A stretch of 64,000 nucleotides of DNA, from the NCBI GenBank assembly GCA_024655885.1, contig JANLFN010000002.1, positions 62,001-126,000 on the forward strand, written 5' to 3'. Made by a program: the position numbers and the translations under genes. Below the pieces are notes generated by a model. That model worked only from the letters and a program-made list of their open reading frames with translations. It did no database searches and had not been told where the DNA came from. Shown here piece by piece: positions 37,734 to 38,832 of this stretch (within the stretch, counting starts at the first letter, position 1; every line of letters begins with the position of its first letter). The stretch is from Eubacteriales bacterium. GTDB taxonomy: Bacteria > Bacillota > Clostridia > Acetivibrionales > JANLFN01.

Positions 37734-37957
37734 AATTCATACCTCTCAAAAATATCTTTACGGCTAAATTATATCATATATGCCGGTTATTTTAAAATAT
37801 ACTTGCGCCAAGTTGTGCTGGATCATTATTGATATATTGACAATGATAGCCAAAGGTAATATAATTGGCATTATGATTTACTTAGTACCAATTACCTATA
37901 CCATTAGTCCTAGCATCCTATAGTGTGTAATTGGACTTTGAAGGAAACAATAGAGCT

Positions 37958-38042
37958 TGTAAAAGGGCAAACCTTTCGAAAGATAGGGACGCAAAGCTTC
38001 GAGTCTACGGTGTGAAACACTATGACGGTCGGGTTGCCAAGG
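37958..38042 (+). promoter_or_regulatory. cyclic di-GMP-I (GEMM-I) riboswitch
   Basis: GGGCAAACC at the 5' side pairs with GGGTTGCC at the 3' side. Between them lie GGGACGCAAAGC, CTACGG, a GTGTGAAACACTATGACGG arm, all hallmarks of GEMM-I aptamers. A terminator follows within 20 bases, so c-di-GMP binding probably controls read-through into the 85-aa protein and receiver genes. Confidence 0.9.
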
Positions 38043-38060
38043 CGAATTTCATATGCGGTT

Positions 38061-38098
38061 AAGGCCATGGCTTCTTAAGGCCATGGCTTTATTATTTT
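38061..38098 (+). terminator. riboswitch expression-platform terminator
   Basis: Two tandem AAGGCCATGGCTT segments pair in a 13-bp hairpin with a small loop, followed by TTTATTATTTT. Confidence 0.8.
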
Positions 38099-38135
38099 CA
38101 TTACAAATTTATTTATTGGTTAAGGAAAGATTTCT

Positions 38136-38393
38136 ATGGCTTTTAAGGGCAATATCCTAAAGAATGAGAGCTATGACCCTCACTATAGGATAGAGTTTTC
38201 TTATGAAACTGAAGAGGTGTCAATTGAGAAAGGCTACGCAGAGATTATAAGAAGGGCTCCGAGGCCGATCATAACCTATGATTCCGACACCGAATCCAGG
38301 CTTGGGCCTTTTGACAGGGCCAAATTAGAGCTGGAACTTCTAAATCTGGTAATCAATTTCTGGTTTCAGAGGCAAAAAGACAGAACCATTTGA
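38136..38393 (+). CDS. 85-aa protein controlled by c-di-GMP riboswitch
   Basis: Soluble, charged protein. Starts MAFKGNILKNESYDPHYRIE, has beta-rich FSYETEEVSIEKGYAEII, then a conserved-looking RRAPRPIITYDSDTESRLGP and an amphipathic C-terminal helix (FDRAKLELELLNLVINFWFQ). AAGGA precedes the ATG. No family recognised. It is the first gene after the riboswitch, so it probably works in motility, adhesion or sporulation output of c-di-GMP. That is inference. Confidence 0.75.
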   Translation: MAFKGNILKNESYDPHYRIEFSYETEEVSIEKGYAEIIRRAPRPIITYDSDTESRLGPFDRAKLELELLNLVINFWFQRQKDRTI

Positions 38394-38478
38394 GGTTGTC
38401 CTAAGCACTCCATAAGTCTGCAGGGCATTGAAAGGAGATTGGCCTCAAACCTTACAGACAGCCGTTGAGGTGTCTTGC

Positions 38479-38832
38479 ATGAAAAAAGTGTTAATTGTGG
38501 ATAGTTCGGCAAATATGAGAAACAAGCTGAAGATGCTGCTGCAAAAACATGGCTTCGAGGTTGTCGGCGAAGCGGAAGATGGAAGAATTGCGGTCAAAAA
38601 ATTTAAAGAGTTGACTCCCGATATTGTGACAATGGAATTAGACCTGCCCCTGATGGATGGGCTGGAAGCATTAAAGGCTATAAGGCAAATGGACCCTGAC
38701 GCAAAAGTAGCGATAATAACTTCCCAGGACTGTTCAAAAACCATCCGCACCGTCTCTGCGTTAGGGGCAAAGGAGTATTTGCTCAAATCCTTCAGCAGAG
38801 AAAGGATCATTCAAGCGTTAAAAGCCCTGTGA
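38479..38832 (+). CDS. stand-alone receiver-domain protein, Glu at the phosphoacceptor position
   Basis: 117-residue CheY-like receiver from the ATG behind GAGGTG. KKVLIVDSSANMRNKLKMLL has Asp-Ser where active receivers have Asp-Asp. TPDIVTMELDLPLMDGLEAL has Glu (residue 53) where the phosphorylated Asp should be. Thr/Ser (IITSQ) and Lys (YLLKSF) are kept. The changes predict a non-phosphorylatable or constitutively active receiver. It lies 85 bases after the 85-aa gene and is likely in the same riboswitch-controlled transcript. No histidine kinase is nearby. Confidence 0.85.
   Translation: MKKVLIVDSSANMRNKLKMLLQKHGFEVVGEAEDGRIAVKKFKELTPDIVTMELDLPLMDGLEALKAIRQMDPDAKVAIITSQDCSKTIRTVSALGAKEYLLKSFSRERIIQALKAL

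Follow-up and report, generated by a model that had tools for sequence, protein, structure and literature searches.

What might a c-di-GMP riboswitch control through a response regulator receiver that lacks its phosphorylatable aspartate? The question is raised by a locus in the window (the whole 64,000-nucleotide stretch of DNA analyzed here), where a GEMM-I leader precedes a gene for a small unnamed protein and a gene for a CheY-type receiver that stands alone and has Glu at its phosphosite. Our best overall explanation, to which we lend about half of our confidence, is a c-di-GMP OFF switch over a two-gene operon, encoding a pseudo-CheY whose effect would be set by its dose and an 85-residue adaptor acting in the chemotaxis pathway. 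The features concerned are the following:

37837..37865, + strand: sigma-70-type promoter, TTGACA-17-TATAAT, assigned on a consensus match only (12/12 consensus positions)
37956..38041, + strand: c-di-GMP-I (GEMM-I) aptamer (RF01051, 79.5 bits, E 5.4e-14, model positions 1-87, full length)
38036..38043, + strand: strand A, GCCAAGGC, at the aptamer 3' end; would form one half of the antiterminator by pairing with 38064-38071
38060..38091, + strand: intrinsic terminator, 14-pair stem and T-rich tail (hairpin -20.4 kcal/mol)
38064..38071, + strand: strand T, the 5' arm of the terminator, GCCATGGC, partner of strand A
38136..38393, + strand: open reading frame of the 85-residue protein, narrow unnamed Clostridia family, modeled as a four-stranded sheet with a long C-terminal helix
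38479..38832, + strand (start ATG 38479): stand-alone CheY-type pseudoreceiver of 117 residues with E53 and S9 (Pfam Response_reg, 2.5e-26)

The riboswitch leader and its predicted direction

An Rfam search of the 64-kb window returned the c-di-GMP-I aptamer as its sole match, covering the full length of the model and scoring 79.5 bits against a curated gathering score of 35 bits. The preliminary description had placed a GEMM-I aptamer and a terminator upstream of both genes, which agrees with this match and with the 14-pair terminator stem; its coordinates were also correct, except that its start lay 2 bases within the aptamer. The aptamer carries a G at Rfam model position 11, which probably corresponds to G11 of the Clostridioides difficile Cd1 riboswitch, itself equivalent to Vc2 G20, the position of selectivity between c-di-GMP and cGAMP (PMC9262584), and the putative ligand is c-di-GMP. 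A terminator scan of the leader and operon identified one terminator (38060-38091) and none between the two genes (38393-38479), which are probably co-transcribed as a two-gene operon. Given the Rfam E-value, the intact reading frames, the saturated third codon positions with amino acids kept and a second locus in the genome that pairs a GEMM-I with the 85-residue family, the arrangement is not a product of chance.

The direction of the switch was approached through the alternative pairing of strands A and T. In the window leader, this duplex has an energy of -14.4 kcal/mol versus a shuffle mean of -8.5 (p 0.024), and the pairing is present in the fold of the 119-nt nascent transcript and gone once the terminator is complete. 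When the same pairing was compared with shuffles in seven leaders, p ranged from 0.001 to 0.062 in six and was 0.17 in the seventh, a leader that now has a transposase behind it. By sequence and energy, the leader therefore has the architecture of an OFF switch, with a terminator and, excluding it, an antiterminator built from the 3' strand of the aptamer. The same strand logic (P, A, T, H) is found in Cd1, which is an OFF switch (PMC9262584), and class I c-di-GMP switches in C. difficile are OFF (PMC11477304). We thus predict a transcriptional OFF switch, in which the operon would be shut at high c-di-GMP; the preliminary description had given no direction.

The opposite direction, in which c-di-GMP binding would block termination and raise operon expression, as in class II switches and CmrRST, appears quite unlikely. 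Homologous aptamers do include ON architectures (PMC9262584), and minimum free energy folds with the complete terminator favor termination by default. However, the proposed antiterminator draws on the 3' strand that the aptamer needs for ligand binding, so that ligand and antiterminator are mutually exclusive, and the folds of the leader showed no ligand-stabilized antiterminator. Since the complete terminator beats the antiterminator by minimum free energy, switching in the predicted OFF direction must be kinetic.

A receiver without its phosphorylatable aspartate

The receiver, whose nearest solved structure by sequence is Thermotoga CheY, was compared with the 29 best-matching CheYs of the order. 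The phosphosite, Asp in 29/29 of these, is E53 in the receiver (codon 38635-38637, GAA), and the acidic pair at positions 8-9, DD in 29/29, is reduced to DS, with D8 retained and the second Asp replaced by S9 (codon 38503-38505). Thus, the substitutions given in the preliminary description, Glu at the phospho-Asp site and Ser for one of the acidic pocket residues, are both confirmed. Its proposed check of whether Glu is conserved among close homologues came out negative, and even among the aligned receivers of its own genome the window receiver is the only one with Glu at this site. T81, K103 and the aromatic Y100 are retained; position 104, Pro in all 29 CheYs, is Ser, the K+2 residue is Phe, and I54, T55, M56, G84 and Q85, invariant across the 29, are all altered. 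Having lost DD and D from the set that defines a phosphorylatable CheY (DD, D, T/S and K), the protein is, judging by its sequence, a diverged pseudoreceiver. Its median identity to the CheY group is 45%, against 60-70% within the group.

Asp and Glu codons are one base apart and every relative has Asp, so an assembly or sequencing error in an ordinary CheY could in principle have produced Glu53. The preliminary description had named Asp-bearing homologues, together with reads showing such an error, as what would count against its reading. The first part is borne out by the 29 CheYs, but the changes at S9, P104 and ~20 further nearly invariant positions occur jointly with that at position 53, and with so many more invariant residues changed, an error as the source of the Glu is very unlikely, to the point of being hardly credible.

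A second possibility is that the receiver rides along as a passenger, decaying or neutral, and that the 85-residue protein is the only functional target of the riboswitch. Its branch in the tree is long (1.55 versus a median of 0.14, with uncertain placement), no Glu-bearing orthologue was found, and related genomes have the riboswitch-linked 85-residue gene standing alone. Yet the 117-codon frame is open, with 53% identity to the nearest CheY, 80/117 third positions changed, synonymous sites saturated and a dN of 0.41; saturation at this dN implies that selection acted on the frame through most of its history, and we regard the passenger explanation as rather unlikely. A displaced origin was also considered, in which the receiver would be the missing CheY of a CheA on contig C25 that has no adjoining CheY, but this was rejected, since the long branch leaves the place of the receiver in the tree unsettled. 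In relatives, CheAs of the type found there (locus L104 of this genome, G000; C25:36534-41407) have a CheY just upstream, and here an integrase-like gene lies in between instead.

The preliminary description had further proposed that Glu can mimic the active state. In this case, the receiver would be a constitutively active CheY, with Glu53 in place of phospho-Asp; any protein made would drive the motor or some other target, and the role of c-di-GMP would be limited to setting the dose. Glu is the commonest substitute in Asp-less receivers (26%) and some receivers are activated by it (PMC12548384, PMC12632262, PMC4395418); the retention of T81, K103 and Y100 fits such a role, and the C. difficile receiver CmrT, which has Glu and a disrupted DD, has been inferred to be constitutively active (PMC12548384). 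In CheY, however, the change from Asp to Glu is reported as insufficient by itself (PMC4395418), a Phe at K+2, as found here, is reported to bias CheY towards the inactive state (PMC12632262), and the loop residues invariant in the 29 relatives (I54, T55, M56, G84, Q85, P104) are also altered. No paper on CheY D57E came up in our literature search. The mimic idea is thus weaker than first assumed, lacking support where CheY itself is concerned, and we hold it to be an improbable account of this receiver, on a par with the passenger. The other half of the earlier proposal, that the level of c-di-GMP rather than phosphorylation is the input, stands: there is no Asp for ordinary aspartyl phosphorylation, so abundance set by the riboswitch would be the natural input.

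The 85-residue protein and its recurrence behind c-di-GMP-I riboswitches

The protein encoded by the first gene had been described as unknown, and indeed no Pfam or NCBIfam model matched above cut-off. The best Pfam hit, DUF6762, reached 13.3 bits against a cut-off of 27; as a family assignment it was not accepted (best value 0.0067, with member 1 under the cut-off), and NCBIfam gave no match. An AlphaFold2 model built from eight alignment rows (pLDDT 90.9, pTM 0.80) had no match below E 0.05 in a fold search against the PDB and viral models. PilZ and Pur-alpha were discarded because of low TM-scores (below 0.36), and DnaA, the only solved-structure match of the sequence profile, was discarded as chance (E 0.5).

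The family is narrow. In the class sample it occurs in 15/391 genomes, its few known carriers belonging to the order studied here and to one further family of that class, and a phylum-wide search of 398 genomes added one further, weak match. A scan of the genome contigs with the single sequence gave no match, and a 5-row alignment of the family used as query gave seven loci. Residues D14, P15, R39, P42 and E67 are conserved. Members without a riboswitch mostly adjoin a Na/Ca exchanger or DUF421 (YetF) gene, not chemotaxis genes, and these neighborhoods span two orders (L007-L010, L047-L060, L097-L103). Elsewhere (L013, 1028-1740), a tandem pair of distant members is flanked by a RecD-like helicase gene on one side and comFC/YvyF-like genes on the other.

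Five GEMM-I riboswitches and two family members are present in the genome, and both members are directly behind a GEMM-I. Counting roughly, with 5 and 4 chances in ~3,300 genes, we estimate the probability of this by chance at ~2 in a million. The second member is encoded in an operon on contig C10 (L045, 8262-9503, minus strand), in which a GEMM-I is followed by the paralogue, CheX and a YvyF-like flagellar-region protein (5.2e-13, partial match). The CheX assignment relies on PF13690 (8.9e-21), the CheX_Thtogales model being matched at 1.2e-35 but under its curated cut-off, and the ExxN motif, judged by eye, is retained. CheX is a CheY-P phosphatase. The operon sits just behind sigI/rsgI-type genes. 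As for the remaining riboswitches, two lie ahead of genes for HD-domain proteins of the c-di-GMP phosphodiesterase type, and the fifth (L046, contig C31, 2365-2452, minus strand) looks orphaned, with a terminator present and only an ISL3-type transposase behind it on its strand.

A link between the family and c-di-GMP-I-type aptamers is also found in Thermoclostridium caenicola (G101) and two near relatives, the last two of these loci being nearly identical and counted as one; these copies stand alone beside polysaccharide or germination-type genes. In a tree, the four riboswitch-linked members that were tested fall together on one side of a branch (support 82), and only 1/500 shuffles was as low. 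Of the ~130 GEMM-I places in the order whose downstream genes were read, a set that includes tandem pairs and sites truncated at contig ends, those with the family behind them were all in this genome. The recurrence of the 85-residue protein behind c-di-GMP-I riboswitches, which lay outside the view of the preliminary description, is the stronger biological signal of the locus.

Receivers also occur directly behind GEMM-I in the order. In two genomes (G011 and G006; L147 1694-2262, L148 3841-4332), the riboswitch is immediately upstream of an ordinary CheY heading a chemotaxis operon, and in five (L120, L121, L122, L123, L152) it precedes a conserved LytTR response regulator followed by a conserved membrane-type gene. 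The Asp is kept in all of these two CheYs and five LytTR regulators, the window receiver being the exception. Outside this genome, no relative turned up with both the 85-residue protein and the receiver together, so the functional link of the pair rests on one locus.

Proposed mechanism and comparison with known systems

The proposed explanation builds on what can be read along the DNA, namely the aptamer, terminator, alternative pairing, gene order, loss of the phosphosite, paralogous operon and riboswitch-linked subfamily. At low c-di-GMP, the aptamer 3' strand would base-pair with the 5' terminator arm, allowing read-through and synthesis of both the 85-residue protein and the pseudo-CheY, while at high c-di-GMP the aptamer would retain its 3' strand, the terminator would form and both genes would be off. 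Being out of phosphotransfer, the receiver would signal by its amount, most likely in competition with the true CheY for a chemotaxis partner (the motor switch, a CheX/CheC-type phosphatase or CheA). The 85-residue protein would be the constant output of the switch. Since its paralogue and CheX are both under the control of the second GEMM-I, it is probably a small adaptor of this pathway. As the sister copy shares that switch with CheX, the pair probably links c-di-GMP to the control of swimming. We infer that both proteins would act on motility by competing with or modulating CheY, CheX or the motor. Tentatively, and with more doubt than for the operon itself, the 85-residue protein may represent a new, structurally unmatched class of chemotaxis or flagellar adaptor controlled by c-di-GMP riboswitches, its copies acting with a phosphorylation-dead CheY and with CheX, such that c-di-GMP would set motor bias through the dose of proteins that enter the CheY pathway at two points.

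How the on/off state of bacterial pseudoreceivers is controlled is an open question in the field (PMC12632262), and the window suggests a directly testable answer: protein amount, with a second messenger acting through RNA. In addition, c-di-GMP riboswitches appear to have a recurrent target in a small unnamed family without a known fold, and in one genome the CheY pathway appears to be co-regulated at two points, pseudo-CheY and CheX.

Several known systems resemble parts of this arrangement. Cle proteins of Caulobacter are CheY-like and tie c-di-GMP to the motor without phosphorylation, but they bind c-di-GMP via a C-terminal [YF]XGPX[RK]R extension (PMC5677366). This Arg-rich extension is absent from the window receiver, which ends at ALKAL after the receiver domain and whose link to c-di-GMP would be transcriptional. 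CheX/CheC CheY-P phosphatases are represented by the CheX gene of the paralogous riboswitch operon, although the 85-residue protein itself has no similarity to CheX/CheC. The class I riboswitch Cd1/flgB of C. difficile shares the GEMM-I aptamer, the terminator, the antiterminator formed by the aptamer 3' strand and a flagellar context; however, it controls a flagellar operon directly, whereas the window leader would control a two-gene regulatory operon (PMC9262584, PMC11477304). The closest precedent is CmrRST of C. difficile, where a c-di-GMP riboswitch also lies over a receiver, CmrT, with Glu at the phosphosite, DD broken and T/S and K kept; that system has a class II ON riboswitch, a phase-variable promoter, OmpR-type DNA-binding regulators and a kinase (PMC12548384, PMC6837544). 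The window locus encodes only a 117-residue receiver of the stand-alone CheY type, with no DNA-binding domain or adjoining kinase, behind a class I aptamer predicted to be OFF, and adds a new small protein. Thus, the combination of a c-di-GMP riboswitch with a Glu-bearing, broken-DD receiver is already known from CmrRST and is not new as such; what is new here is its occurrence with a class I, predicted OFF riboswitch, a stand-alone CheY type, an unnamed small protein and a sister operon that bears CheX.
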